Shown here piece by piece: positions 975-16,468 of a stretch of 21,700 bases of DNA (position 1 is its first letter; every line of letters begins with the position of its first letter). The DNA comes from a virus. Under the pieces are notes generated by a model, which saw only the letters and a program-made list of their open reading frames with translations, had not been told where the DNA came from and did not search any database. A program made the translations under genes and the position numbers. The DNA is taken from the IMG/VR virus record IMGVR_UViG_3300023219_000062, positions 1 to 21,700 of that record, one strand, 5' to 3'.

Positions 975-1778
975 ATGTCAGAAGAACTAGATGCAAACGC
1001 TCAACAAGACGATTCTATTATCATGCCAGTACAGCTTGATAAGAATAATACAGTTGCAGCGGAGTCCGAATCATCAACGGATAGTGGAGTAAACCACGAT
1101 AACAACCACAATGGGGTTCAAGATAGAATCAACAAGGTTACTGCTCAGAAATATACAGAACAACGTAGAGCAGATGGTTTGCAGCGAGAGCTTGACGAGA
1201 TGAAGAATCTCCAGCCTAAGCCAGTAGATAAACCAGTTGTTGCTATCAGTGCACCACAGTTACCAGAAGATTTATATGATGACGATGCTATGCGTAAATA
1301 TCACGCAGACAATCAGAAGTATAATCAAGAGCTGGTAAATGGCGCAGCAAAGAACGCTTACGAATCCCAAATAAAACAGGGCGAACAACAGAAAGCACAA
1401 CAAGCACAGCAACAAGTTATCGATGGTTATTACCAGAATGCACAGCGTGATGGTGTAGACCTTGATAAACTACGAGTTGCAGAGCAAACGTTTAATAACT
1501 CAGGTATTAGCAATGAGTTAGCACAGCACGTTATGGCTGATGTTAACGGCGGTAAGATTGTAGAGTTTCTACATGATAACCCGGCTTTACTGCATGAGAT
1601 TTCAAATATGAATCCAATGCAAGCAGCTATTAAACTAGCAAATGAGATTAAACCTCAAGTGCTTTCTAGAACGCCCAAAGTATCTAGCGCGCCTATTCCT
1701 CCAATTGAAGTAAGTGGTGGTGGGGTACATGAACAGGATGAGTTCGAAAAGAATTACCCTGGCGCAACGTTTATTTAA
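975..1778 (+). CDS. Scaffolding protein (P22 gp8-like)
   Basis: A 267-residue protein with no large hydrophobic core, an acidic Asn/Asp-rich N-terminus, a probable coiled coil at residues 50-80 (...YTEQRRADGLQRELDEMK) and a Gln/Ala helix at about 130-155. It is directly upstream of the coat gene, as in P22 (gp8 is 303 residues). Scaffolds of this group direct coat assembly into procapsids and then exit through the coat lattice. The usual strongly basic C-terminal coat-binding hook is not obvious. Here the protein ends in EFEKNYPGATFI, so the coat contact may differ. Start at ATG 975 with AGGGTG upstream. It is probably transcribed from the promoter at 909-917. The call rests on position and composition more than on motif. 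Confidence 0.8.
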   Translation: MSEELDANAQQDDSIIMPVQLDKNNTVAAESESSTDSGVNHDNNHNGVQDRINKVTAQKYTEQRRADGLQRELDEMKNLQPKPVDKPVVAISAPQLPEDLYDDDAMRKYHADNQKYNQELVNGAAKNAYESQIKQGEQQKAQQAQQQVIDGYYQNAQRDGVDLDKLRVAEQTFNNSGISNELAQHVMADVNGGKIVEFLHDNPALLHEISNMNPMQAAIKLANEIKPQVLSRTPKVSSAPIPPIEVSGGGVHEQDEFEKNYPGATFI

Positions 1779-1798
1779 TTTAATTAAGGTGAATTACC

Positions 1799-3094
1799 AT
1801 GGCATTACCAAATGACTACCAGAGCAACACCAACAAGAAGCTTTTAAAATCTTTCATTAAAGGCTTCGAAAGTACAACCATTTTAACAAACACAGTTTCA
1901 AAACAGTTAGTAAATGAAATTGATTCATCTACTGGCGGTACTCCTGGTGCTGGCGACCCTGTAGCAATGAAGCGCCCGACTCAATATGTACCAACTCGCT
2001 CACCAGATGGCAACATGTCGTCTCTTGATAAAAACCCGGTGCGTACTGGTAAAGTAGTTGGTAACGTATCTGAAAACGGTTACATCACTGTAATGGTTGA
2101 GAATAGTCAGATTGAAGAAGCATTAGAAACTGACCAATTAGATGAGCTTTTACGCCCTATTGCAGAAGATATGGTTGTTGAATGTGAATCAGAACTGGCT
2201 AAGTTCATGACTAAAAATGCAGCTTTAGTATCAGGCGACCATGATGTAGCAATCAATAAATGGTCTGATATTGCAAAAGCAGGCGCTCTATTTAAAGAGT
2301 CAGGCGCTCCAGCAGGCAAACGTTATGCAGCAATCAATAGCTTCGATGAAACTGTTTTAGCTGACCTTCAAACCCAATTGGGTGTAAATCCTAATGTAAA
2401 TGAAGCATGGGCAGGCGCAGTAGTTAAAGAGAAATTCGCTGGCCTTGACCAAGTATTAACAACTAACAATCTTGATGAGTACACAACAGGCACAGAGTCA
2501 GCGGGTATTACACTTGCTTCTACTCCATCGCCTAGCTACACAACCTATAAAGACAGCTACCAAATGACGCTTGCGTTAACTGGTTTAACAATCACAACTG
2601 GTACATTAACAGCGGGTACTCAAATCCAGTTCGCTAGCTCTTTATTGCTTAACATGCGTAACCGTAAAATCGTGCGTGAATCTGGCACTGGTATTCCAAT
2701 TACATTAACTATCCTTGAAGATGTTATTGCTGATGGTTCAGGCGATGTAACAGTGAAAGTGTCTGGTGCTGCTATTGCTGAATCTGGCGTTGATGGTGCT
2801 TACAATACAGTTAGCCAAGCATTAACATCTGGTGATACAGTTATCGTACTTGGTACGGTTGATACTTCTTACCGCCCAGCTCTTGCTTACTGCGAAGGCT
2901 TCGTTGGCATGGGTTCAGTTGTATTGCCTAAACTACACGCTTTAGACTCTATGATTATCAATCACAAAGGTATGTCTATCCGAGTTCACAAATTCTCCGA
3001 TGGTACTGCGAATATCAATAAATACCGTTTTGATATTCTACCAACCTTTGCATGTTTCAACCCGTTCTGGGGTATGCAGTTGTTTGGTTCTTAG
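1799..3094 (+). CDS. Major capsid (coat) protein, P22 gp5-like
   Basis: A 431-residue protein, almost exactly the length of P22 coat (430), placed after the scaffold. It reads as a P22-type coat protein: an N-terminal arm, a beta-rich region (about residues 220-345, likely including the inserted I-domain; repeated short strands such as TLALTGLTITTGTLTAGTQI), and a conserved C-terminal part ending in FNPFWGMQLFGS. It assembles the icosahedral shell. The ribosome site AAGGTG lies before ATG 1799, 20 bases after the scaffold stop. The two genes share a transcript, and the terminator at 3102-3124 follows at once, which should favour abundant coat mRNA. Confidence 0.9.
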   Translation: MALPNDYQSNTNKKLLKSFIKGFESTTILTNTVSKQLVNEIDSSTGGTPGAGDPVAMKRPTQYVPTRSPDGNMSSLDKNPVRTGKVVGNVSENGYITVMVENSQIEEALETDQLDELLRPIAEDMVVECESELAKFMTKNAALVSGDHDVAINKWSDIAKAGALFKESGAPAGKRYAAINSFDETVLADLQTQLGVNPNVNEAWAGAVVKEKFAGLDQVLTTNNLDEYTTGTESAGITLASTPSPSYTTYKDSYQMTLALTGLTITTGTLTAGTQIQFASSLLLNMRNRKIVRESGTGIPITLTILEDVIADGSGDVTVKVSGAAIAESGVDGAYNTVSQALTSGDTVIVLGTVDTSYRPALAYCEGFVGMGSVVLPKLHALDSMIINHKGMSIRVHKFSDGTANINKYRFDILPTFACFNPFWGMQLFGS

Positions 3095-3101
3095 TAATTA
3101 T

Positions 3102-3124
3102 GGGGGGCTTCGGCCTCCTTTTTT
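3102..3124 (+). terminator. Rho-independent terminator after coat gene (UUCG loop)
   Basis: GGGGGC and GCCTCC form a stem closed by a C(TTCG)G tetraloop (3109-3112) and followed by six T residues. It sits eight bases after the coat stop. I see no convincing promoter just downstream, so partial read-through or antitermination must express the next genes. Confidence 0.85.
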
Positions 3125-3136
3125 AAAGGGTTTATT

Positions 3137-3304
3137 ATGCGACATCGTACAATGTTAAAATACTCAGATAATGACAAGGGATTTATTCAGTGTGTTATTC
3201 GAGATGATGTTAAGTCTGACTTTGAATCACTTGGATTTGTTGACCATATCGATAAGGTTAAGAAACCAGTGAAGCGTAAAAAGGCTGTGAAAAATGATAA
3301 CTAA
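3137..3304 (+). CDS. Small basic protein between coat and gp4
   Basis: A 55-residue product that starts at ATG 3137 with AAAGGG at 3125-3130. The N-terminal two thirds are mixed (MLKYSDNDKGFIQCVIRDDV...) and the C-terminus is strongly basic (KKPVKRKKAVKNDN). The gene overlaps the next start by 11 bases, which suggests coupling. I do not recognise the family. A basic tail and its position among head genes could suit contact with packaged DNA or the head-tail junction, but that is inference. Confidence 0.7.
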   Translation: MRHRTMLKYSDNDKGFIQCVIRDDVKSDFESLGFVDHIDKVKKPVKRKKAVKNDN

Positions 3305-3803
3305 AGGCGCTATCACAGAAGGTGCATTCAAGCTATTAGTAATCTGGGGTGTTACATCAAAGCCACGTCCAGAAGAGATTGATACCGCTTTAGGTGTTCT
3401 TGATGATTATGCTTTAGAGCTTGAAAGTACAGGGCTTTTAACAGGGTATGCCCCTCCAGGTAACTATGGCGAATCAGATCCAAATGATGACAGTGGATTA
3501 ACAGATTGGATGGCTGGCCCATTTAAAAAGTTATTGGCTGTGGAGCTTATTAGCATCTATGGTAAGGCGATTACTCCAACGCTTGGCACATTGGCATCTA
3601 TGGCTATTAAGTCTTTAGAACACGCGCTTGTTAGAGTTGACCCAGCACGCCCACCAGCTACATTACCTAAAGGTAGTGGTAATGAGTTCGAGTATAGAGA
3701 TACCAAGTTTTATTCAGAGCAACCGGAAAGATTAGATACAGAAACAGATGGTGTTCTTGACGATATAACCTTAACTGGTGAGTCGATAGAATACTTCCCA
3801 TAA
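3294..3803 (+). CDS. Portal-ring head completion protein, P22 gp4-like
   Basis: 169 residues, against 166 for P22 gp4 (tail accessory factor). It has the family layout: an N-terminal helix bundle (KGAITEGAFKLLVIWG...), a TGLLTGYAPP turn matching DGIITGYVF in P22, a middle helix, and the conserved LPKGSGNEF motif (MPTGSGNSF in P22) near residues 124-132. P22 gp4 binds under the portal after packaging and starts tail assembly; some homologues have muramidase-like activity. ATG 3294 overlaps the upstream gene. The C-terminal 35 residues are acidic and differ from P22. Confidence 0.88.
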   Translation: MITKGAITEGAFKLLVIWGVTSKPRPEEIDTALGVLDDYALELESTGLLTGYAPPGNYGESDPNDDSGLTDWMAGPFKKLLAVELISIYGKAITPTLGTLASMAIKSLEHALVRVDPARPPATLPKGSGNEFEYRDTKFYSEQPERLDTETDGVLDDITLTGESIEYFP

Positions 3804-4348: not shown

Positions 4349-4885
4349 ATGCCTTATAAATCCAATAATGGGTATTTATCAAACCTAGGATACCTATCAC
4401 TACCCGGTTACAAATCATCATCTGGTTACAGCCCTATTGCGCCTCCTGTTGGCTTTGAACGGCAGTGGACAATAGGAAATCTAGGTGATGATTACGGCTA
4501 CCACGCTGTTAATGCTTACGGTGATTTAGACTCAAACTTATGGTTTAACTTCATTGATACTGTTGCCGTTCTGATAGTTGATGACTCTGCTAATGCGGCT
4601 ATATTGCAATCAAATATAAGTAACATGTGGGGATTAGCTACTAATGTCACGCTTAACGTTGAAGGCTTTGGTGAAATCGTTCTTACATGGAATGGTGCTA
4701 CATCATATGTAAATATCGGTGATACTGATTTCGTAACCTATATCATGGGGCAGTTAGGAAACACTATCGGTGTAGATATCCTACCTAAAAATGGCGCATC
4801 ACCAACATCAAGAAATGAAATCACAACCTTGTTAGACGATATAGTTACAACCTTAGGCGACAACATAATTCATACAGGAAGTTAA
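4349..4885 (+). CDS. Hypothetical protein with GY repeats (178 residues)
   Basis: ATG 4349 follows AAGGA and lies one base after the previous stop. The N-terminus holds four tandem six-residue units built on GY (NGYLSN, LGYLSL, PGYKSS, SGYSPI, about residues 7-30), then a Pro-rich hinge (APPVGF). The rest is a mixed domain of about 145 residues rich in Asn, Val and Thr. The architecture (short repeat, linker, domain) looks like a virion-anchored decoration or fibre subunit. Family not recognised. Confidence 0.6.
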   Translation: MPYKSNNGYLSNLGYLSLPGYKSSSGYSPIAPPVGFERQWTIGNLGDDYGYHAVNAYGDLDSNLWFNFIDTVAVLIVDDSANAAILQSNISNMWGLATNVTLNVEGFGEIVLTWNGATSYVNIGDTDFVTYIMGQLGNTIGVDILPKNGASPTSRNEITTLLDDIVTTLGDNIIHTGS

Positions 4886-4888
4886 AAG

Positions 4889-6589
4889 ATGCCAAATAAA
4901 TTACCCATAGATTTACCAGATGCAACCCCAGGAACTAAATTTGTTCATGGGGTTAATGTGGATGACCTAACAGATGGCCCGCAAGGAACAAGCCAGAAGG
5001 TTGCGCTTATACCTGTTACTAGGGATATATTAATCAGTCAATTCTCAACGGCTACATCACAAGAGCCATCATCAATTAACACGCCCATCAGGATAGAGTT
5101 TGGCCCTGCATTTGGCACAGCATTAGACCCAGTTGAGATGGATGTGACAGGTTTATTTACTGTGAATGAAGCAGGCTCATACTTTATTAAAACTATCGTT
5201 CATTTCGGTAGAACAACATCAACGGGCGAGGTTGAATTGTTCTTTAGACTGCTAATTAATGGCACTCAACTGGGTAACTCTGCATTTGCACGATTGGATG
5301 ATGATGACACTGTCATACCATCAAGCAGCGAATCATTCATACCATTTGCTATTGGTGACACCTTTGAGTTTGAATTAATCAGAGACAGCTCTAACGGTGG
5401 CATAAATAATGGCGGATTATTCCAAGGCGATCCCGCAACAGTTGGATGGGCCAATGCACAAACAGCACTGATAGCAATATCTCGATTAACAGGTAACGCT
5501 GCAAACCTACAAGCGGATGGTGATGTGGTTGGTGGTGGTGCATCTCAATTAAATGAAGTTGCAACATACTCAAGCCTTACAGGTTTAGCAATCAAATCAA
5601 CGGCTGATGTATCAATTGAGGCAGGCGTAATAGATCGCATAACTCCAGATGAGGATTTATGGATTAGAGTCGATTCAACTCAAGAGAATATATTTATAGG
5701 TAGGCATGTAGATACTACTGGCGCGCCAAACGTAAACAATACCACGTTATTTGTAACAGCTAATTCAACAAATGAAATGGTGCTTTCTACACTTGGAAAT
5801 AACTCCCAAGCTATTAACTTTGTAAAATCAGGGGTATTTAGAGGTAAGCTATCTAATAACCGAGATAGAAACTCAATAGCAATTGAAAACGCCAACGGTA
5901 AGCGACTTGAAATATTACCTAATGATACAGCAACCTTTCTAGTTGATAAAATTGGTATCGGAGCAACTGCATCGGCTAATGATGCTGCTCTGTCATTTCT
6001 TGCTGGCCTTGGTGTGTTGCGAGTGCCAAACAATACAGAGGCTCAATTAGCTGCTTATACTTACGCTCAAGGTGGAAACATCTCTTGGAACTCAACAGAG
6101 AATCAATTACAAGTTGAATCAGGCGGCGTTCGTACTCAATTCAGTAACCCGCAAAAAGGATTTTGTTCAGCAACTAACAATGGCTTATCAACTCCAATAT
6201 CAGGGATAGGCGCTTATAATATCATTGATTTGGGTCCTACATTTAACATACAGAAAGATAAGAATTTTGCGATAAGCACCAATCAAGTAGAATTCACAGG
6301 CACTGCATTTGCTGGAACAATTAGATTTGTATTTGAAATATGGTCACCACCCGCAACTACTGGAACCAAAGATTATGATATTAGATTCCATCTTAATAAC
6401 TTTGCATCTGGACCATTCCCTACCATCCACCAACTAGCGCCCGGTGAATATAGACAAATATCAATAACCGTTAGCGTGTCAAGCTTAACAGTTGGCGCAT
6501 TGTTCGGATTGAGATTACGTCAAGTTAGCGGAGCGATTAACACAACGCCGATATTTCCAATGGCAACAATTGAAATCATAGAGGATTAA
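4889..6589 (+). CDS. Fibre-like virion protein with C1q-like jelly-roll domains
   Basis: A 566-residue protein. An N-terminal adaptor (NKLPIDLPDATPGTKFVHG) is followed at about 50-200 by a domain with the C1q/TNF-like pattern (FTVNEAGSYFIKTIVHF, LLINGTQLGNSAFARL, PFAIGDTFEFELI). The middle (about 205-420) carries fibre-type segments (DGDVVGGGASQLNEVATYSSLTG). A second beta-sandwich lies at about 420-566. Such proteins form trimeric fibres or head fibres that bind surfaces; the receptor is unknown. RBS is AGGAAG. P22 has no fibre gene between gp4 and gp10, so this is an accessory insertion. Whether it attaches to head or tail cannot be told from sequence. Confidence 0.75.
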   Translation: MPNKLPIDLPDATPGTKFVHGVNVDDLTDGPQGTSQKVALIPVTRDILISQFSTATSQEPSSINTPIRIEFGPAFGTALDPVEMDVTGLFTVNEAGSYFIKTIVHFGRTTSTGEVELFFRLLINGTQLGNSAFARLDDDDTVIPSSSESFIPFAIGDTFEFELIRDSSNGGINNGGLFQGDPATVGWANAQTALIAISRLTGNAANLQADGDVVGGGASQLNEVATYSSLTGLAIKSTADVSIEAGVIDRITPDEDLWIRVDSTQENIFIGRHVDTTGAPNVNNTTLFVTANSTNEMVLSTLGNNSQAINFVKSGVFRGKLSNNRDRNSIAIENANGKRLEILPNDTATFLVDKIGIGATASANDAALSFLAGLGVLRVPNNTEAQLAAYTYAQGGNISWNSTENQLQVESGGVRTQFSNPQKGFCSATNNGLSTPISGIGAYNIIDLGPTFNIQKDKNFAISTNQVEFTGTAFAGTIRFVFEIWSPPATTGTKDYDIRFHLNNFASGPFPTIHQLAPGEYRQISITVSVSSLTVGALFGLRLRQVSGAINTTPIFPMATIEIIED

Positions 6590-6591
6590 TC

Positions 6592-6681
6592 ATGCACGAA
6601 TCAAACAAGCGCGGTAAACGAGTAGGCACGCACAAAGCCAAAAAGAAGCCAGCACCCAAGAAACCAAAGAGTAAAAAATAG
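6592..6681 (+). CDS. Lysine-rich micro-protein (29 residues)
   Basis: ATG 6592 follows GAGG (6581-6584). The 29-residue product is about half Lys/Arg and Pro/Ala (KAKKKPAPKKPK core), like histone H1 or nucleoid-protein tails. It lies two bases after the fibre gene and nine bases before the next start. A role in binding DNA or RNA, or neutralising charge in the capsid, is inference. Confidence 0.55.
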   Translation: MHESNKRGKRVGTHKAKKKPAPKKPKSKK

Positions 6682-6689
6682 GAGTTACT

Positions 6690-6836
6690 ATGATAGTAAA
6701 GCGTAAAGATGGTTATCACGTAATGAGCGAATCAAAAGGTAAAAATGGTAAGCGAAAGAACTTAGGTGGCCCATATAAAACCAAAGGAGGCGCAGAGAAG
6801 CGCCTCAAGCAGGTTGAGTATTTTAAAAATCAGTAG
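6690..6836 (+). CDS. Small basic protein with LGGPYKTK motif (48 residues)
   Basis: ATG 6690 follows AGGAG (6680-6684) at a good distance. The sequence GYHVMSES..GKRKNLGGPYKTKGGAEKRL ends in KQVEYFK. It matches a short module seen as stand-alone proteins and as termini of phage prohead proteins: a small strand, GGPYKTK turn, then an AEKRLKQVEYFK helix. The function of the module is not known to me. It is the last rightward gene before the terminator at 6841-6864. Confidence 0.68.
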   Translation: MIVKRKDGYHVMSESKGKNGKRKNLGGPYKTKGGAEKRLKQVEYFKNQ

Positions 6837-6840
6837 TAAC

Positions 6841-6864
6841 TAAGCCCCTTTAACGAGGGGCTTA
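6841..6864. terminator. Bidirectional hairpin terminator
   Basis: TAAGCCCCT (6841-6849) pairs with AGGGGCTTA (6856-6864) around a TTAACG loop. It lies four bases after a rightward stop and five bases before a leftward stop, so it serves both convergent units. The T-runs are weak on both sides. Confidence 0.75.
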
Positions 6865-6868
6865 TCAT

Positions 6869-7111
6869 TTACACCTCACTATGATGCGGCTTAACTTTAA
6901 CGGGCTTACATGTACTTTCATTAAGCCCTTCGTAATTATGCTTAAACTCTTTCTCTGCATCTTCAATCTCTCGCTGCTCAGGCTTATAGCTAAAGCGTTT
7001 CTGATAGGGCAAATCGTTAACGTAAGCAGTCACAAACCAACATGCTTTATGCTCACCTGCTGCTTTACGAAATGATAACTCTGGTTTAGATGTTGAATTA
7101 ATCTTACTCAT
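6869..7111 (-). CDS. Hypothetical protein (80 residues), leftward cassette
   Basis: Last gene of the leftward cassette. It starts with ATG overlapping the upstream TGA (ATGA), with AAGGG before it. The product is hydrophilic, with a short strand region (CWFVTAYVNDLPYQKRFSY) followed by a charged helix (EQREIEDAEKEFKHNY). No family recognised. Its start region (leader and first codons) is nearly identical to that of the gene just upstream. Confidence 0.65.
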   Translation of the reverse strand: MSKINSTSKPELSFRKAAGEHKACWFVTAYVNDLPYQKRFSYKPEQREIEDAEKEFKHNYEGLNESTCKPVKVKPHHSEV

Positions 7112-7401
7112 AATTTACCCTTAGCAAAGTCACGAAGATTGTTAGGGTTCATTAAGTAACCCATTCTTTCGCGATGCCTTTGAAGCTCTTCGTTTATTTC
7201 AATATCACGATTAGCCATTGCATTGCTCGTATTGAACAGCCCCCAGCTATGAACCTTCACGCCACTAAAGCTCTCACCATTAAATAAGGTTTCTGCAATC
7301 TTCTCAGCGCCATCGAATTCAGTTATTTCTAGGTCAACAGATATTATCTTGCCAACTCTACAAAATTCCTGCCTTACTTTATTCGCATCTACTTTATTCA
7401 T
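7108..7401 (-). CDS. Hypothetical protein (97 residues), leftward cassette
   Basis: ATG at 7401 overlaps the upstream stop as ATGA, with GAGGG before it. The product is mixed alpha/beta with a charged C-terminal half (EINEELQRHRERMGYLM). It ends in GKL, as does the product of the upstream gene. No membrane span or catalytic motif. No family recognised. It is part of a co-transcribed, coupled set of five genes led by the Rha-like protein. Confidence 0.65.
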   Translation of the reverse strand: MNKVDANKVRQEFCRVGKIISVDLEITEFDGAEKIAETLFNGESFSGVKVHSWGLFNTSNAMANRDIEINEELQRHRERMGYLMNPNNLRDFAKGKL

Positions 7402-7514
7402 AATTTACCCTCTGATTTTAATATGCATTCGATAACTGCGCGTGGTATTCCCCTCTTATCTTCAAAGCTAAACTCACCATAAACCGTAAGCTCTTTAAAT
7501 ATAAATACCTTCAT
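7398..7514 (-). CDS. Hypothetical micro-protein (38 residues), leftward cassette
   Basis: Fills the gap between its neighbours: ATG at 7514, TGA at 7398-7400 overlapping the next ATG (ATGA). The product begins MKVFIFKELTVYGEF and ends SEGKL, a plausible small strand-strand-helix fold. A GGCGGA sequence lies directly at the start, so its spacing is poor. No other start is available because an in-frame TAA at 7530-7532 ends the upstream gene. Family unknown. Confidence 0.5.
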   Translation of the reverse strand: MKVFIFKELTVYGEFSFEDKRGIPRAVIECILKSEGKL

Positions 7515-7529
7515 TCCGCCGTAATCAAC

Positions 7530-7727
7530 TTACACATCATATTTATCACGCGCCGCACAGTTTAACGCTAGGTCTGTGATTACATCTAAAATAGGCCAAC
7601 TACTAAACCCAGCGACCTCAACCCAATAACAAGACTGCCTTTCATCAAACTCAGTTGACTTAGCATCTGGATATTTAGCCTCAAGCTCCATTAACGTAAA
7701 CAATTTACATAGTTGTAACTGGTTCAT
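7530..7727 (-). CDS. Hypothetical protein (65 residues), leftward cassette
   Basis: ATG 7727 is preceded by AAGGA in the leader AATAAGGATTAATTATG and lies two bases after the stop of the Rha-like gene. The sequence MNQLQLCKLFTLMELEAKYPDA... with YWVEVAGF and a C-terminal hydrophobic helix (PILDVITDLALNCAA) suggests a small soluble alpha/beta protein. Family not recognised. The same 17-base leader recurs at 16497-16513. Confidence 0.65.
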   Translation of the reverse strand: MNQLQLCKLFTLMELEAKYPDAKSTEFDERQSCYWVEVAGFSSWPILDVITDLALNCAARDKYDV

Positions 7728-7729
7728 AA

Positions 7730-8443
7730 TTAATCCTTATTCTCTAATAAGTGAACTTGACTCTTGCCAATGATTGCAGCGAAAGAAATTATTCTTTCCT
7801 TTGCTAGCTTGTAAATCTCTTTGTATGGTAATTCTCCATTCATGCCATCAAGCAAAGCTTTCTCGATAACATCATCAGCCGTACATACTTGCATCAACTG
7901 TTTAATGGTTAATATCTCGCGCAAGTTATCGTACTTTTGCTCAATGAGGAATAACGCTTTGTTTTCCATCTTGGCTAAGTTGGTGTAATACATTGAAGCA
8001 GACTTACTACCTTGAGCTGTTGCATAATAAACAAAGTTTTTAATAACATCTGTTTTCTGTTTATATACAATCTTTCCATCAGAGCGGATATTCTGCCAGT
8101 TAGGATCTCTTTGTTGAGCAACTATATTAGCTGCAATGCTTTTAAGTCGAGCAAACTCTTTTGCTACCCTTACCTTTAGCTTAATAACTTCCTTTGAGTT
8201 ACGAGCAAGCAAAACAAGTAAAATAAATTGGTCTTCATTAAGTAAATAACCTTGAGTTGGTCGCCCACCTTTACCACTAGGTTTCTGCATTTGAAAACGC
8301 ACTACTCCAAAATCTTCAAAGTCATTAATGTTATCTACTATTAACTTTTTTAAAGCTCTATGCTCTCCGTAACCCATCGCAACAAACAAATCAAACGTGC
8401 TAACTGTTGGCTGGTTATTAATAAGCACTACCAAATCATTCAT
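7730..8443 (-). CDS. Rha-family phage regulatory / antirepressor-type protein
   Basis: 237 residues from the ATG at 8443. That ATG lies six bases after AAAGGA, whereas the ATG two codons upstream (8449) abuts the ribosome site. The N-terminal domain (about 1-105) matches the Rha pattern: a winged-helix-like start, then GKGGRPTQGYLLNEDQFILL and KLKVRVAKEFARLK. The C-terminal domain (about 115-225; YATAQGSKSASMYY, KMENKALFLIEQKYDNLRE) is shared with many phage antirepressor-like proteins. Such proteins often counter a repressor or alter host regulation. Here it leads a five-gene leftward operon opposite a strong rightward promoter, with a palindrome over its own -35 region. DNA binding and the target are inference. 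Confidence 0.78.
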   Translation of the reverse strand: MNDLVVLINNQPTVSTFDLFVAMGYGEHRALKKLIVDNINDFEDFGVVRFQMQKPSGKGGRPTQGYLLNEDQFILLVLLARNSKEVIKLKVRVAKEFARLKSIAANIVAQQRDPNWQNIRSDGKIVYKQKTDVIKNFVYYATAQGSKSASMYYTNLAKMENKALFLIEQKYDNLREILTIKQLMQVCTADDVIEKALLDGMNGELPYKEIYKLAKERIISFAAIIGKSQVHLLENKD

Positions 8444-8475
8444 AAACATTCCTTTAATAATTAACGTGTATGATT

Positions 8476-8505
8476 ACTATAACATAATATCGTAAATATT
8501 TACAA
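8476..8505 (-). promoter_or_regulatory. Leftward promoter of the Rha-like operon
   Basis: On the minus strand TTGTAA (complement of 8500-8505), an 18-base spacer and TATAGT (complement of 8476-8481) with a TGT extension make an extended -10 promoter. It lies 33 bases before the Rha-like start. Confidence 0.6.
8492..8503. promoter_or_regulatory. Perfect 12-bp palindrome, candidate operator
   Basis: GTAAATATTTAC is a perfect inverted repeat. It overlaps the -35 box of the leftward promoter and ends nine bases before the -35 box of the rightward promoter, so one dimer bound here could govern both. A repressor is not identified; the Rha-like protein or an off-window repressor are candidates. Confidence 0.5.
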
Positions 8506-8511
8506 TAACCT

Positions 8512-8540
8512 TTGACACCTTATTAATTAACCATTATATT
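8512..8540 (+). promoter_or_regulatory. Strong sigma70 promoter (rightward)
   Basis: A perfect TTGACA (8512-8517), a 17-base spacer and TATATT (8535-8540, five of six consensus) form the best classical promoter in the window. It should start transcription near 8547, about 29 bases before the membrane-protein ATG. The spacer contains the palindrome TTAATTAA (8523-8530). Confidence 0.8.
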
Positions 8541-8575
8541 CAACTCACCAATAACGGAAACCAAAGGAAATGATT

Positions 8576-8758
8576 ATGGAAACTTATGTAACAGTGGCAT
8601 TTTGGCTAGGGCTTGTAGCAACAATAATTAGAGGCTCTATTATGTCTACCTCTAAATACCCACGAATCGAAGAGAAAACACTTGGCTCTGATATCTTTAT
8701 GATGATGATTCAAATAGGATTCATGGCTTGGTGTGCAGTATTACTATGGATTGTGTAA
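8576..8758 (+). CDS. Small two-span membrane protein (60 residues)
   Basis: The start chosen is ATG 8576, seven bases after AAAGGA; the ATG at 8570 is too close to it. The product has two hydrophobic spans: about residues 5-22 (VTVAFWLGLVATIIRGSI) and 42-60 (MMMIQIGFMAWCAVLLWIV), joined by a charged loop (SKYPRIEEKTLGSD). It is the first gene behind the strongest promoter and divergent from the Rha-like gene. P22 keeps a membrane exclusion protein in its antirepressor region, so an exclusion or host-modifying role is a reasonable guess, but there is no sequence match that I can claim. Confidence 0.68.
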   Translation: METYVTVAFWLGLVATIIRGSIMSTSKYPRIEEKTLGSDIFMMMIQIGFMAWCAVLLWIV

Positions 8759-8847
8759 TGAGCTAACAAACACAAGACGAACTAGACGAAAGCATGGCAA
8801 GTATAAATAAAAGTATCGAGCTGATTACTGGTTTGAAATTTAATTAA
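8758..8847 (+). pseudogene. Micro-gene interrupted by TAA at codon 3
   Basis: ATG at 8758 overlaps the previous stop (TAATG) and the frame reads M-S-stop, then 27 sense codons (QTQDELDESMASINKSIELI to TGLKFN) and TAA at 8845-8847. The downstream codons look coding: a charged amphipathic helix. A single C-to-T change at 8764 (CAA to TAA) would explain the stop. Recoding is unlikely because TAA ends many genes here. A late start at ATG 8794 could give an 18-residue remnant. Confidence 0.4.
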
Positions 8848-8859
8848 CGGAGAGAAGAG

Positions 8860-9783
8860 ATGAATAAATTAAGATTGGATTACTATAAATCACTAGGGCT
8901 TAAATTAGAGATTGGAGATGTTTACACTATAACTGGCGCACGTGGTGAAGATGTAATTACCTGTGATAGTCAGCATTTAGACGCTCAAAACTCAGCGTGT
9001 AGTAATGATAAAAATAGATTCATTATCTCATTCGCACCTCGCAAGAATACAGGTGAGCAACATGATTGCGGAGACATTCCAATCATTGCACGATATAACG
9101 AGACTAGAACTCGATGCGATTTAAAGTCAAAGTTAAGCTTTGAAATAATTGATGCGCCATGTGTATTGAGTATGGAGTCGTGGATTCCAGATTTAGAGCT
9201 ACTAATCAAAATGCAAGATGAGAATGACAATAAAGGCAATAATATGATTACAGAAGCAGAGCAAAAGATATTAGATAATGCGCCAGATGGTGCTCAGTAT
9301 TACTACAGGGATGGTCACACTGATAAGATTCATTATTCTGAACATGCAGGTCAAGCAAGGCTTGATACGCTACGCAAGAAGCAAGGTAAATCTGTGGTTG
9401 ATGCTAGTAAATACAGAAAAGCTGAGCTAAGTGTCAATGGGGCTGCTAGTGCGATGAAAGAATTAGGTGATGCAATAAATGGTAAGCCACGCATGAAGGT
9501 TGAGTATATTGGCGTTCATAACTCCGAAGCAATCAAGGGTGTAATGGAGGGCGAAGATTACTATTACGAAGGATATAGAGGCGCATTCGTTTTATTGGCG
9601 ATGAACTCTGCATTGAGTCGTTTTTGTAAGGCATTTAAAAAAGTTGAAACTGAAATCACTTGGCAAGATGAGGCTGAGAAATTCGGAGTTACTGAGGATT
9701 GCGGTGATGTTCATTTTGCTCATATGCTGGATAGAGATGAATTCATAACATTATGCCACCTAGTAAGTTCAATGAATAAATAA
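8860..9783 (+). CDS. Hypothetical two-module protein (307 residues)
   Basis: ATG 8860 follows GGAGAGAAGAG. The N-terminal module (about 1-125) is mixed alpha/beta with four Cys and ends in an acidic-Asn linker (MQDENDNKGNN). The C-terminal module begins at an internal Met (codon at 9244) as MITEAEQKILDNAPDGAQYYYRDG, an opening typical of small phage proteins of unknown function, and ends in a helix-rich part (GAFVLLAMNSALSRFCKAFKKV). An AAAGG-like sequence before the internal Met could allow a separate shorter product. The gene closes the rightward arm of the cassette and is followed by a terminator. Function unknown. Confidence 0.72.
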   Translation: MNKLRLDYYKSLGLKLEIGDVYTITGARGEDVITCDSQHLDAQNSACSNDKNRFIISFAPRKNTGEQHDCGDIPIIARYNETRTRCDLKSKLSFEIIDAPCVLSMESWIPDLELLIKMQDENDNKGNNMITEAEQKILDNAPDGAQYYYRDGHTDKIHYSEHAGQARLDTLRKKQGKSVVDASKYRKAELSVNGAASAMKELGDAINGKPRMKVEYIGVHNSEAIKGVMEGEDYYYEGYRGAFVLLAMNSALSRFCKAFKKVETEITWQDEAEKFGVTEDCGDVHFAHMLDRDEFITLCHLVSSMNK

Positions 9784-9800
9784 CCAATCCCCACCTAAAC

Positions 9801-9824
9801 AAAGCCCTCTTGATTGAGGGCTTT
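9801..9824 (+). terminator. Rho-independent-like terminator at cassette right edge
   Basis: AAAGCCCTC (9801-9809) pairs exactly with GAGGGCTTT (9816-9824) around TTGATT. The T-run is short, but the nine-base perfect stem right after a stop codon makes termination likely. Confidence 0.75.
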
Positions 9825-9862: not shown

Positions 9863-9871
9863 TGTTATACT
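9863..9871 (+). promoter_or_regulatory. Extended -10 promoter for the gp10 tail operon
   Basis: TG-T-TATACT (9863-9871) is an extended -10 with only a weak -35 (TTCTTA, 9843-9848, spacer 17). It has the same design as the scaffold promoter at 909-917 and lies 30 bases before the gp10 start, after the cassette terminator. It would restart late transcription. Confidence 0.6.
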
Positions 9872-9900
9872 TGCATTAATAAATATTATTAGGTGTGATT

Positions 9901-11328
9901 ATGGCTCAAGTTCAAGTTGATATATTCCAAGGTCAAGTGACAGATGGAGAAGTTGATTATCGTGACTCCCTGCCTGTTAACATGTATCACATTCCTAAAA
10001 TGATTGGTAAATCAACGGGTTATCTACGCTCTCAATGGGGGCTTGAAGCATTCGCAAGTGTCCCAGGTAAAGATGGTGGCGGCTTTTGGTCGAGTGTATT
10101 TAATAATCATTTTCGTGTAAGTGGTGGCGATTTAATAACAGTTTCTAGAGATGGAATTATTGATAACCTTGGAGCTATTGGATACTTAGGGCAATGTACA
10201 TTTAACCAGACAGAACGTAACGTTGCAATTACAACTGATTCAGGTTGTTGGCTGTATAATATACTGGATGGATTAAGGCAGATAACTGATCCGGATTTGG
10301 GGCCAGTATTCGATACTATTTATATTAATCAACGTTTAATTCATACTGATGGTGAATTCATTGTTGTATCAAATCCCGGTAATGATGAAGAATATGACAC
10401 ATTGAAATATGGCACTGCTGAAATTGACCCGGATGGTATTGTTGGCCTTGCTTCTATATCTAATCGCTTGCTTGCAATTGGCACAGATACAATAGAATGG
10501 TTTGCAGACCAACCCACTAGTGGTGACACTTTCCCTTATGTAAGAATTGAAGCGCAACTAATTGAAGTGGGAGCTGTCGGAACTCACGCCAAAGTTCAAA
10601 TGATTGATAGCAATGGGTTTAAAACAGTTTACTTTATTGGTGGTGGGAAAAATGACCCTGTAGCGTTTAGGCAAACGGGCGCAGGTAATGCCCCTAAGCT
10701 ATCAACAAAAGAGATTGACCAGATACTGCAGAGTTATACTAATGAAGAGCTATCAACTGCTATTTTAGAAAACAGAACTATTGAAGCTAACAACTTTGTA
10801 TTCATTCATCTTCCTAATCACACGTTATCATTTGACATTGCAGCAAGCACAGAAATGAAAATGTTTGCTTGGACAATCCAAAAAACAGACGTTAAAGGTG
10901 ACACCCCATCAGCATGGATAAACGGTGTTTACGACCCAAGAAATTCCAGTTTTATCTACGGAGACAAGAGATTTGAAAGACTTGGTAAATTAAGTAAGGC
11001 ATTATCAACACAGTACGGCGAAACTGTTGAGAATATATTTTACACGCCTATATTGCCATTCAAGAGAAAGACTGTATCAGAGTTGACGCTAGAAACGCTA
11101 CCAGGAAGAAACGAACCTGATACGGAGCCAGTTATTTTTATATCGTCATCAACTAACGGATTGATTTATAGTCAGGAATATTTAATTAGCATGGGTACGC
11201 AAGGCGATTACAACCATAACTTAGTCGTTAGAATGAATGATTATTTTTCACGACCTACATCATATAAATTTAGAATGGCGAATAATCAGCCTGTTAATGT
11301 ATCTGATTTAACTTTGGAAATAATCTAA
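9901..11328 (+). CDS. Packaged DNA stabilisation protein, P22 gp10-like
   Basis: 475 residues from ATG 9901; the GTG six bases upstream overlaps the ribosome site AGGTG, so ATG is preferred. P22 gp10 has 472 residues. Matching segments include DYRDSLPVNMYHIPK near the N-terminus (P22 YIDYLPVNMLATPK), STGYLRS (SSGYLRS), and QSYTNEELSTAILENR...FIHLPNHTLSFD (RSYTAEEMATGVMETL...IIHLPRHVLVYD). gp10 forms a beta-propeller hexamer that plugs the portal channel beneath gp4. In P22 gp10 follows gp4 directly; here 6 kb of other genes lie between. Its stop overlaps the next ATG (TAATG). Confidence 0.93.
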   Translation: MAQVQVDIFQGQVTDGEVDYRDSLPVNMYHIPKMIGKSTGYLRSQWGLEAFASVPGKDGGGFWSSVFNNHFRVSGGDLITVSRDGIIDNLGAIGYLGQCTFNQTERNVAITTDSGCWLYNILDGLRQITDPDLGPVFDTIYINQRLIHTDGEFIVVSNPGNDEEYDTLKYGTAEIDPDGIVGLASISNRLLAIGTDTIEWFADQPTSGDTFPYVRIEAQLIEVGAVGTHAKVQMIDSNGFKTVYFIGGGKNDPVAFRQTGAGNAPKLSTKEIDQILQSYTNEELSTAILENRTIEANNFVFIHLPNHTLSFDIAASTEMKMFAWTIQKTDVKGDTPSAWINGVYDPRNSSFIYGDKRFERLGKLSKALSTQYGETVENIFYTPILPFKRKTVSELTLETLPGRNEPDTEPVIFISSSTNGLIYSQEYLISMGTQGDYNHNLVVRMNDYFSRPTSYKFRMANNQPVNVSDLTLEII

Positions 11329-13324: not shown

Positions 13325-14492
13325 TCCAGACTGGAGCGGCTTATTAAACGCTCAAGCTAGACAAGGCCAAGTTTTAGGTCAAGCAGGTCAGCAGATTGGC
13401 GGAATGATAGCCCAAAAAAGACAAGCCAATAAAATGCAAGAGGTTTTCGCTCAAGGCAAAGAGGCTTTCTCATCTGGCGACTTGTCTAAAATTGAAGATT
13501 TTTCAATTCAAAACCCAGAAATGGCTAATCAATTTAGACAGAATATGCAGTTTGCAGATGAGCAGTCAGAAGCCCAGGCAACAAAGGGGATGATTGATAT
13601 CATATCAGGTGCAGACCCTTTGCAAGTATTGACTGATAGAGTTACATTCATCGAATCAAGAGGGGGCAATCCCACTGATACGCTAAAAGAAATTGAAGAT
13701 TATCAGAAAAATCCGAAAGGCTACCAGGACAAGATGCGTAATTTATTGGCCGTTACAAATCCACAGGCGTCTAGAGAGCTTCGTGAATTAGCAGGCAAAG
13801 ATACACCAACCATTACAAGCCCTGCATCAGTAAAAGAAACTGAATGGTTTATGAAGCAATCACCAGAAGTCCAAAAGAAACACATTGAACTTAAGCGCAA
13901 AACAAACCCTACAATGGCGCAGCAGTTAGAGCAAAAACAAGCAGAGTCGGACATAAAAGTTGGCGAAGAAGGTAAAAAGGTAGCATCAAAAGGAAAAGCT
14001 CAACGAACGCAAGGATATATTGATTCAGGAATAGAGGCGGCTGATTCCCTAGGTAACATAGCAAGAGTTAGTGAGCTACTTAATAGCGTTGAAACAGGCG
14101 GCTTTGATAATGCCGCATTAAGAGCTAAGCAAATGTTTGGTATTGAGTCTGGTGATGAGGCTGAATTATCCGCCGGACTTGGCAAGGCGATATTGTCACA
14201 GCTTAAGCCTATTTTTGGTGCGGCATTTACAGCGGCAGAAGGTGAGAGACTAGAAAGAATAGAAGCTAGTTTCGGTAAATCTACAGCAGGCAATAAACGA
14301 TTAGTTGAAGAAGTTAAAAAGATAACTGAACGAGCCGCAAGGCGTGGCTTATCCGCTGCTAAATCTGCGGGTGATGACTTCACCGTTCAAGAAATAGAGA
14401 ATATATTAGAAGGATTAAAAGGCGGAACCGCACCAACCACCAACAAATCCAAAGCAGCACCACAAACTGTTAGCTGGGGAGATTTGAAATAA
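13311..14492 (+). CDS. DNA ejection protein, gp20-like
   Basis: 393 residues, second of three ejection-type genes (P22 gp20 is 471). ATG 13311 has AAGGTG upstream and lies within the end of the previous gene. The protein is mostly helical and Gln/Lys rich. Its N-terminus (NPDWSGLLNAQARQGQVLGQ) and the helical stretches at 200-330 (KGKAQRTQGYIDSG..., AELSAGLGKAILSQLKP) are typical of phage DNA transfer proteins. P22 gp20 enters the host with gp7 and gp16 to make a path for DNA across the envelope. No enzyme motif is seen. The call depends on order, size and composition. Confidence 0.72.
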   Translation: MQGYNPDWSGLLNAQARQGQVLGQAGQQIGGMIAQKRQANKMQEVFAQGKEAFSSGDLSKIEDFSIQNPEMANQFRQNMQFADEQSEAQATKGMIDIISGADPLQVLTDRVTFIESRGGNPTDTLKEIEDYQKNPKGYQDKMRNLLAVTNPQASRELRELAGKDTPTITSPASVKETEWFMKQSPEVQKKHIELKRKTNPTMAQQLEQKQAESDIKVGEEGKKVASKGKAQRTQGYIDSGIEAADSLGNIARVSELLNSVETGGFDNAALRAKQMFGIESGDEAELSAGLGKAILSQLKPIFGAAFTAAEGERLERIEASFGKSTAGNKRLVEEVKKITERAARRGLSAAKSAGDDFTVQEIENILEGLKGGTAPTTNKSKAAPQTVSWGDLK

Positions 14493-16468
14493 TGAATGTA
14501 ACATTACCCAATGGCGTAGTAATGGAAGGCGTCCCAGATGGGACATCAAAAGACATGGTTATGCAGAAAGCTATCTTGAATGGATTGGCTCAAGAATCAG
14601 ACTTTTCATCTGCTCAGCCCGCACAAGAACAAGCTGTTGCGCCTGATGTTGTCACTACAACTGAACCAGAAGAACAAGGTTTTCTATCTAAGGCTAGTGA
14701 TTTTATAACAGGAGCAGATAGAAGCACCCCAGAGATGGAATCAATGGGTGAGATTGGCAATGCACCTGAATTAAATGAAATGTCTTGGTCATCGTTTAAA
14801 ACGGCTTTAGGCTTACTTGCTACTGGAGATGAAACGAAAGCTAAAAGCGTAATACAATCAAATATTCCAGAAGCTAAATTCACAGAAGACTCGGCAGGTA
14901 ACGTAATTGTTAATCTTCCATCTGGTCAGTATGCATTAAACAAACCTGGTGTTAGTGGTCAAGATATTATAAAAGGTGTATTTGATATGCTTGCATTTAC
15001 TCCGGCAGGCAGAGGCGCAACCGTTGCTAATGTAGCAGGAAGAAGCGCAGCAACAGAAGCAGCTTTACAAGGTGCTACTCAACAAGTTGGTGGTGGTGAC
15101 GTTGACATTAAAGACATCGCTTTCGCTGGTGCACTTGGTGGTGCTGGCAAAGGTTTGGAAAATGTTATTGGTACAGGATATCGAGCTTTGAAAGGCAATG
15201 TACCAGATGAAGCGGCTGGTATAATTAGAGAAGGTGCTGATGCCGGCATTCCAGTAATGACATCTGATGTTATTGAACCAACTACATTCGCGGGTAAAAT
15301 GGCACGTTCAACGGGTGAGAAAATACCGCTAGTTGGTACGGGCGCAGCAAGAGCAGAGCAGCAAGCGGCAAGGCAAGAGGCTGTGTCTCAGTTTGTAGAT
15401 AAGTATCAAGCACCATCGTACAAAGAGATAGTAGACAGCCTTAAGAATAAATCAAAAGGCGTTAAGAGTGCAGCTGGTAGCATACTCAATAAAACGGGTG
15501 TTAAGTTAGATGAGTTGGGAGATATTCCAACAGTTAAAACCAGTGAAGCTATCGACAGTGCAATTACGGAATTATCAAAGACCAATGTAAGGCTTGATGA
15601 ATCAGCAGCTGCAGAACTAACCGAGCTTAAAAACTTAATGGATATGCCTCAAACATTTTCTAGCCTTAAAGAAAATAGAACAATTGCAAGAGATGTTCTT
15701 GATTCATTCGGAAAAGGCGATCGCTCTCAGTTACCAACAAGGTCTAAATCTTTAATCCAGAAAGCAGTTGTTGGAATGGGTAAGGATATGGACGAATTCG
15801 CTAAATCCAACTTAACGCCAAAAGAATACGGAAGCTGGAAAAAGGCTAATCAAATCTATGCGGGTGAAGCAATTAAGCTTAAGAAATCTAAGATTAAAAA
15901 TATTTTAGATAAAGGTGATGTTACGCCTGAAAATGTTGAGTCTATGTTATTCAGCAAAAAGCCAAGTGAGGTTAAATCTCTTTATGATTCACTGACCACA
16001 AAGGGAAAAGATAATGCTAGGTCTGCATTAATATATAAAGCATTTGATAATTCATCAAAACGAGCTGGTGGAGTTACACCTAATTCTTTTGCATCTGAAT
16101 TAAATAAGATAGCTAAAAACACAGGCGTTTTCTTTAAGGGGGAGCAGAAGAAGCAATTAGAAGGATTTAAGCGCCTAATTGAATCAACTAGACGAGCACA
16201 GGATGCAGCAGTTGAAACGCCAACAGGTCAACAAGTCTTAGGTGCTGGCGCTGGTTACGCTGCATTTACAGACTTAGGCGCAACATTAGGATTAGGAGGG
16301 ACAGCAGGAGGATTAGCGCGCCTGTATGAATCTGCGCCTGTTCGTAACGCTTTACTAAGACTCGGTTCTGTTCCAAAAGGTTCAGACCGTTATCAGCAAG
16401 CTCTTTCCGAAGCTCAAGCCGTGATGACTGCCGCTGGTCAATCAATAAGACGCGAAGAAGAGGAGTAA
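14492..16468 (+). CDS. DNA ejection protein, gp16-like
   Basis: 658 residues (609 in P22 gp16), starting in a TAATG overlap with the gp20-like gene; a GGGGAG lies ten bases upstream. The N-terminus (VTLPNGVVMEGVPDGTSKDM) is an opening common to large phage injection proteins. Residues 185-245 and the last 70 or so residues are Gly/Ala-rich helices (AGALGGAGKGLENVIGTG; GAGAGYAAFTDLGATLGLGG), compatible with membrane insertion. The middle is charged helix. P22 gp16 is needed for DNA transfer into the cytoplasm and inserts in membranes. No lytic transglycosylase motif is visible. Confidence 0.75.
   Translation: MNVTLPNGVVMEGVPDGTSKDMVMQKAILNGLAQESDFSSAQPAQEQAVAPDVVTTTEPEEQGFLSKASDFITGADRSTPEMESMGEIGNAPELNEMSWSSFKTALGLLATGDETKAKSVIQSNIPEAKFTEDSAGNVIVNLPSGQYALNKPGVSGQDIIKGVFDMLAFTPAGRGATVANVAGRSAATEAALQGATQQVGGGDVDIKDIAFAGALGGAGKGLENVIGTGYRALKGNVPDEAAGIIREGADAGIPVMTSDVIEPTTFAGKMARSTGEKIPLVGTGAARAEQQAARQEAVSQFVDKYQAPSYKEIVDSLKNKSKGVKSAAGSILNKTGVKLDELGDIPTVKTSEAIDSAITELSKTNVRLDESAAAELTELKNLMDMPQTFSSLKENRTIARDVLDSFGKGDRSQLPTRSKSLIQKAVVGMGKDMDEFAKSNLTPKEYGSWKKANQIYAGEAIKLKKSKIKNILDKGDVTPENVESMLFSKKPSEVKSLYDSLTTKGKDNARSALIYKAFDNSSKRAGGVTPNSFASELNKIAKNTGVFFKGEQKKQLEGFKRLIESTRRAQDAAVETPTGQQVLGAGAGYAAFTDLGATLGLGGTAGGLARLYESAPVRNALLRLGSVPKGSDRYQQALSEAQAVMTAAGQSIRREEEE

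Follow-up and report, generated by a model that had tools for sequence, protein, structure and literature searches.

A divergent seven-gene block upstream of gp10 in a P22-like viral contig is a probable moron

The stretch analysed here, which we call the window, is a 21.7-kb viral contig of 21,700 nucleotides, without a larger assembly (positions 1 to 21,700 of IMG/VR virus record IMGVR_UViG_3300023219_000062). By its sequence matches its late gene cluster is of the P22-like type, and the block at 6841-9824, directly upstream of the head closure gene gp10, is very probably a moron, an accessory cassette seated at a transcription-unit boundary. Morons are an established type of add-on, and this one, carried by a short-tailed marine virus of bacteria, is a new case at a site where P22 has none. 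The initial annotation had proposed an independent, divergent and movable cassette nested in the late genes, and this agrees with what we found: the block is absent from relatives, and when these were checked for the same gene order they did not share it.

The anatomy of the block can be followed from end to end. Two predicted terminator hairpins enclose five leftward genes, with the regulator Rha first, and two rightward genes, and the two groups appear to be read from promoter-like sites of their own, placed back to back. The features of the block and its flanks are as follows (aa, amino acids; bp, base pairs).

4889-6589, plus strand: left-flank late gene; its N-terminal part corresponds to phrog_3614, and its homologues abut gp10 in relatives with an empty site.
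6841-6864, no strand assigned: predicted bidirectional terminator hairpin TAAGCCCCTTTAACGAGGGGCTTA; stem of 9-10 bp, -15.8 kcal/mol, z -4.7 (plus strand).
6869-7111, minus strand: fifth leftward gene, 80-aa protein; its start overlaps the preceding stop, with an AAGGG ribosome site; no phage match.
7108-7401, minus strand: fourth leftward gene, 97-aa protein, 58-60% identical to hypothetical proteins of Vibrio lentus phages (tblastn E 1e-29).
7398-7514, minus strand: third leftward gene, a 38-aa open reading frame with a start-stop overlap with the next gene; the weakest of the frames.
7530-7727, minus strand: second leftward gene, 65-aa protein; open reading frame with a ribosome site, no phage match.
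7730-8449, minus strand: first leftward gene, Rha-family regulator of 239 aa (PF09669, phrog_2657).
8476-8505, minus strand: predicted leftward promoter TTGTAA-18-TATAGT with TG before the -10, conserved upstream of Rha in relatives.
8492-8503: 12-bp palindrome GTAAATATTTAC, an operator candidate, overlapping the leftward promoter.
8512-8540, plus strand: predicted rightward promoter TTGACA-17-TATATT, directly before the rightward genes.
8570-8758, plus strand: 62-aa protein with two membrane helices predicted from hydropathy; homologues in Vibrio phages PGA and 455E52-1.
8860-9783, plus strand: 307-aa protein; its N-terminal ~125 aa (MNKLRL...SFAPRxNTGEQ...) are common to Rha-adjacent proteins elsewhere.
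9801-9824, no strand assigned: predicted terminator hairpin AAAGCCCTCTTGATTGAGGGCTTT after the rightward operon; perfect 9-bp stem, -15.2 kcal/mol, z -3.9 (plus strand).
9863-9871, plus strand: extended -10 box TGTTATACT, from which, by comparison, transcription of the late genes further on probably restarts.
9895-11328, plus strand: gp10-like head closure protein (Hc3), right flank; PF11134 E 7e-45, phrog_578 E 2e-76.

The two hairpins, already named as terminators in the initial annotation, stand out from the rest of the window: no other perfect stem in it passes the thresholds used (8 bp or more, a loop of 3-8 nt, four or more G-C pairs), and about 0.6 entries would be expected in shuffles, where one hairpin may count twice. 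Both fold better than nearly all shuffles, and their T-tracts are short and lie partly within the stem, like those of bidirectional terminators. The left hairpin is placed between the upstream late genes, which end at 6836, and the leftward operon, which ends at 6869, and is common to both. By prediction, the block thus has terminators of its own. We also considered whether the likeness of the two hairpins to each other marks recombination ends; it is better explained by the terminator type common to these phages.

The divergent region between the operons is equally distinctive. The rightward site is the only sigma-70-like site in the window with at least 11 of 12 matches, where 0.9 would be expected. 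The leftward promoter has a history that can be traced, because positions -80 to -1 before Rha are conserved in four other loci (L002, L016, L017 and L018; 52-58 of 72-75 aligned bases, z 4-8). This conserved block spans 75-80 bp, with its -35 TTGTAA and its TG-TATART, and further upstream of Rha nothing is shared. Since only these ~75-80 bp are conserved across unrelated contexts, the Rha gene moves with its own promoter. The block thus carries strong promoter-like sites, one of them kept with Rha across loci. The operator candidate GTAAATATTTAC occurs as a single copy in the window and is perfect in the window only, not in the relatives. Within the cassette, no exact match to the IHF consensus was found near the Rha promoter; IHF-like sites with at most one mismatch number 65 window-wide, against 44.2 in shuffles (sd 6.7), and the cassette is not enriched in them.

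The accessory status of the block follows from relatives in which the site is empty. In five viral contigs gp4, a homologue of the N-terminal part of 4889-6589 and gp10 follow one another in this sequence, and the gap between the second and the third is 0-30 bp (0-3 bp in L100, L119 and L124; ~30 bp or less in L116 and L123). In Pseudomonas AH02, gp4 and gp10 are adjacent without the cassette, which is also absent from L047, the nearest gp10 relative (65% identity). Nowhere among 65 gp10 loci surveyed is gp10 directly preceded by an opposed multi-gene block of this sort. The window cassette thus separates genes that adjoin each other in relatives. It had been described as lying between gp4 and gp10, and gp10 is indeed directly to its right; on the left the description needs refining, for four late frames separate gp4 from the block (4349-4885, 4889-6589, 6592-6681 and 6690-6836). 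The stretch 6592-6836, directly before the left terminator, holds the frames of a 29-aa lysine-rich peptide and a 48-aa protein. The base composition of the cassette also differs from its surroundings, with 37.0% GC against 40-41% in the adjoining late genes, the lowest zone of such size in the window. L047 has extras of its own at 1582-3770, downstream of its capsid-like gene, which suggest a second insertion site: a 329-aa protein that on visual inspection resembles an endonuclease, and two opposed genes that form a unit at 3223-3770.

Why should this site accept an insertion? A study of phage e34 raised the question of why P22-like phages have their morons between gene 16 and the tailspike gene and nowhere else, and proposed that other places may not tolerate them (PMC2629481). 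Two Vibrio phages, 234P9 (L132, 5824-5964) and 5P1a, have a hairpin and a promoter before gp10 and no insert; their spacer carries the terminator hairpin AAAGCCCCTACATGGGGCTTT and the extended -10 box TGTTAAAAT. In Vibrio phage 1.275.O (L013, 7667-8000) one opposed gene lies between hairpin AAAGCCCCTACACGGGGCTTT and gp10, inserted between the same hairpin and promoter box as in 234P9/5P1a and flanked by two copies of GCTTTTTCTTTA, of which the empty relative 234P9 has one. Both the window and 1.275.O thus have opposed inserts immediately upstream of gp10. The terminator/promoter boundary at which these lie pre-exists in the empty 234P9 and provides a concrete reason why the site tolerates insertion. 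A box similar to TGTTATACT stands 29-36 nt before gp10 in the window, L047, 1.275.O and 234P9/5P1a and is absent in 12 other inspected loci; the window box by itself is not significant and rests on this comparison. From these comparisons we infer that in this lineage gp10 is probably the first gene of a unit with its own promoter, at a boundary that tolerates insertions. Alternatively, transcription could pass the block with the help of a Q-type antiterminator, as it does in the late operons of lambdoid phages.

The regulator at the head of the leftward operon is Rha-like, as the initial annotation had it: the protein scores 34.5 bits against PF09669, above the cut-off of 29.9, and matches phrog_2657 at E 5e-41, while against the stricter TIGR02681 it reaches 19.2, under the cut-off of 45.95. 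Its structure was modelled with confidence (pLDDT 87), and among viral proteins the model is most like phage regulatory proteins; searches of the PDB by fold and by sequence gave nothing significant. Relatives that are 59-84% identical are found opposed within the structural genes of Plesiomonas phage phiP4-7, Vibrio phage 242E40-1, L018 and the L002/L016/L019 group. In five lineages of this clade Rha sits opposed in structural operons, and the insertion place is different each time. It lies among tail genes in phiP4-7, between head genes in 242E40-1, beside the head-tail adaptor gene in L018, and against portal, TerL and head genes in the L002-type viral contigs. An AGCCC..GGGCT-type hairpin follows directly 3' of the Rha stop in phiP4-7, 242E40-1 and L018. 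In a tree of 27 Rha sequences, all opposed cases fall in one clade of 11 members, which includes non-opposed members as well. One Rha clade that repeatedly reaches unrelated late operons with its own promoter points to a portable regulator. In L007/L019 (7001-7711; IMGVR_UViG_3300028301_000020) Rha is broken into several frames, and its late-strand neighbours are intact.

The other cassette genes are mostly unrecognised, as had been said, yet the 97-aa and 62-aa proteins have unnamed homologues in Vibrio phages. The leftward genes are tightly packed with several start/stop overlaps, and for most cassette genes either a ribosome site can be recognised or the start overlaps the preceding stop. 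The homologue of the 97-aa protein in Vibrio phage 1.285.O is located between terL and portal, and a search of viral contigs confirmed no further one. The homologues of the 62-aa protein were found by tblastn (E 4e-8 and 7e-6 for PGA and 455E52-1). The N-terminal relatives of the 307-aa protein (32-35% identity, E ~1e-13) are encoded immediately downstream of Rha, on the same strand as it, in other viral contigs. Neither rightward protein matches a family in Pfam, PHROGs, NCBIfam or PADLOC, and the structure model of the 307-aa protein (pLDDT 36) is unusable. When bacterial and archaeal genomes were scanned, no relative could be confirmed either for Rha or for the N-terminal domain of the 307-aa protein. 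In L002, L016, L017 and L045 the N-terminal domain of the 307-aa relatives is shared and the rest is differing or truncated, as if domains had been shuffled; in L016 only the tail end is kept. Between the 62-aa and 307-aa genes, at 8763-8849, there is a frame of 29 codons that an in-frame stop interrupts early, possibly a small broken gene.

Around the cassette, the late cluster of the window includes the P22 coat (PF11651, E 2e-49), gp4/Ad3 and gp10/Hc3, a gp16-like DNA transfer protein and a tailspike with a weak match to the P22 head-binding domain. At the right end of the window lie leftward genes including RusA and lambda P-type replication genes. Neither an Rfam family nor a tRNA gene was found when the window was scanned for them.

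Several points weigh against the cassette being a moron. The T-tracts of its terminators are weak, and terminators and promoters alike are sequence predictions. Three leftward proteins are without a known homologue (for the 38-aa one, public collections were not searched). The comparison of phages with and without the cassette, which had been proposed as a check, gave the empty sites described above, but the exact junctions in the window are unplaceable, as its nearest relative L047 differs upstream too. Finally, neither an integrase nor a repressor, as a temperate life style would lead one to expect, was recognised on the 21.7-kb contig.

We nevertheless consider it likely that the block is a moron whose timing and regulation follow a scheme of this kind. 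Both divergent promoters would be active in a prophage, carrier or early state, when the late genes are off, so that the block would be transcribed independently of the late promoter and terminated at both sides. Rha, as a DNA-binding protein of the antirepressor type, would regulate the divergent promoter region and/or a phage repressor. Late transcription would cross the cassette or restart around it, via antitermination or the extended -10 promoter, leaving virion assembly unaffected. The rightward proteins would act on the host or on competing phages, with the 62-aa membrane protein as the best candidate for a superinfection-exclusion effector, while the 307-aa protein and the small proteins of the leftward operon may be host-directed accessory proteins. 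Exclusion, through the two-helix 62-aa protein, or antirepression would be plausible functions; the immunity, exclusion or host-takeover roles suggested in the initial annotation are guesses. A bolder version, which we find rather doubtful, is that the terminator/promoter junction before gp10 is a moron-landing site of marine P22-like phages, comparable to the gene 16-9 site of P22 but separate from it, and that the cassette is a new kind of two-operon exclusion or immunity switch in which the opposed Rha gene, with its own promoter, controls the divergent membrane protein and a 307-aa effector.

The same evidence can be read differently. The block may tentatively be seen as a superinfection-exclusion or anti-phage cassette in which the 62-aa and/or the 307-aa protein blocks incoming phages and Rha merely regulates. 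Small inner-membrane moron proteins of temperate phages do exclude superinfection (SieA; HK97 gp15, as cited in PMC10883804), and the PGA homologue of the 62-aa protein likewise belongs to an opposed unit, of three genes, among late genes. The C-terminal half of Rha (residues 90-227; 7770-8182, minus strand) weakly matches the PADLOC candidate defence family PDC-S22 (24 bits, E 3e-6). However, the homologues of the rightward proteins are uncharacterised, and the lack of a family match for either protein also speaks against this idea.

It is unlikely that the block is a functional equivalent of P22 immunity I, with Rha inactivating a prophage repressor and an operator between the divergent promoters silencing the block in a lysogen. 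The layout does agree with P22 13336-16035 in its paired promoters, two operons and terminators; Rha resembles Ant N-termini weakly (phrog_63, 5e-8; phrog_373, 1e-7), its predicted fold resembles viral antirepressor and regulatory proteins, and the palindrome at 8492-8503 overlaps the leftward promoter. However, there is neither an Arc/Mnt-like repressor nor an Ant proper, the position is another one, and in P22 itself rha is separate from ant; the palindrome is perfect in the window alone, and the repressor that Rha would inactivate was not recognised on the contig.

More doubtful still is the idea of Rha as a selfish regulator that homing-type endonucleases encoded beside it have spread without benefit to the phage. 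HNH or GIY-YIG/T5orf172-type genes adjoin Rha in L018, L002 and L017 and could help to move it, and Rha does move together with its promoter, but the window block has no endonuclease, and seven genes in two operons have been kept open. That the contig, coming from a viral contig collection, is an assembly artefact joining two viruses deserves next to no credence: both flanks come from one P22-type cluster (gp4, gp10, DNA transfer protein, tailspike), two misjoins would be needed, and the block boundaries coincide with terminators.

The reading of the block as a moron can be set beside known systems, of which P22 immI, named as an analogue in the initial annotation, comes first. The e34 study terms immI the ant moron and places sieA, orf59a and mnt / arc and ant between genes 16 and 9 (PMC2629481); in the P22 record, immI (13336-16035) is annotated with leftward mnt, orf59a and sieA, rightward arc and ant, paired promoters and a terminator, followed by gene 9. 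The window block is like it in its divergent operons, paired promoters, rightward terminator and variable accessory content, and in having a DNA-binding protein of the antirepressor type, to which P22 adds a membrane exclusion protein. It is unlike it in lying before gp10, with the regulator on the leftward side, and in having Rha instead of Ant. Family searches of the window found no Arc/Mnt-type or Ant family, and the similarity of Rha to Ant N-termini is weak. The site that immI occupies in P22 is empty in the window, with 100 bp between the end of the gp16-like gene (16468) and the start of the tailspike gene (16569). The analogy thus stands for the layout and fails for membership: the block is not immI, because it is at another site, without Arc/Mnt, and has Rha instead of Ant.

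A second P22 moron, pid (PMC3573128), resembles the block in being opposed to the late genes, having its own terminator and being absent or replaced in relatives, but it is one 86-aa gene at the lysis-terminase junction, as against seven genes before gp10. Beside pid, at that same junction, lies P22 rha, a gene distinct from ant; like the window Rha it is in the late region, but it is co-directional with the late genes whereas the window Rha is opposed. The two proteins are remote (BLASTP E 0.004; a profile match over ~100 residues), and the Rha of SPN9CC is closer to that of the window (E 7e-15). Rha of phi80 and P22 is stated to harm phage growth in IHF-deficient hosts (PMC4936722).

Like the window, phiP4-7 and 242E40-1 have a Rha (60-66% identical) opposed in structural genes with a terminator right after it, but they are other phage types (with tape measure or tail-tube gene sets) with other insertion points, and neither a 307-aa partner nor the membrane protein is recognised beside their Rha. 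The L002/L016/L017/L019 group resembles the window in its Rha, 68-84% identical, the same promoter block, opposition to TerL, portal or head genes and, usually, a relative of the 307-aa protein after Rha; unlike in the window, this partner is downstream in the same operon and not divergent, and its C-terminal part is variable. Because relatives of the 307-aa protein usually follow Rha in this group, the rightward operon of the window is linked to the same cassette family, even though it is divergent.

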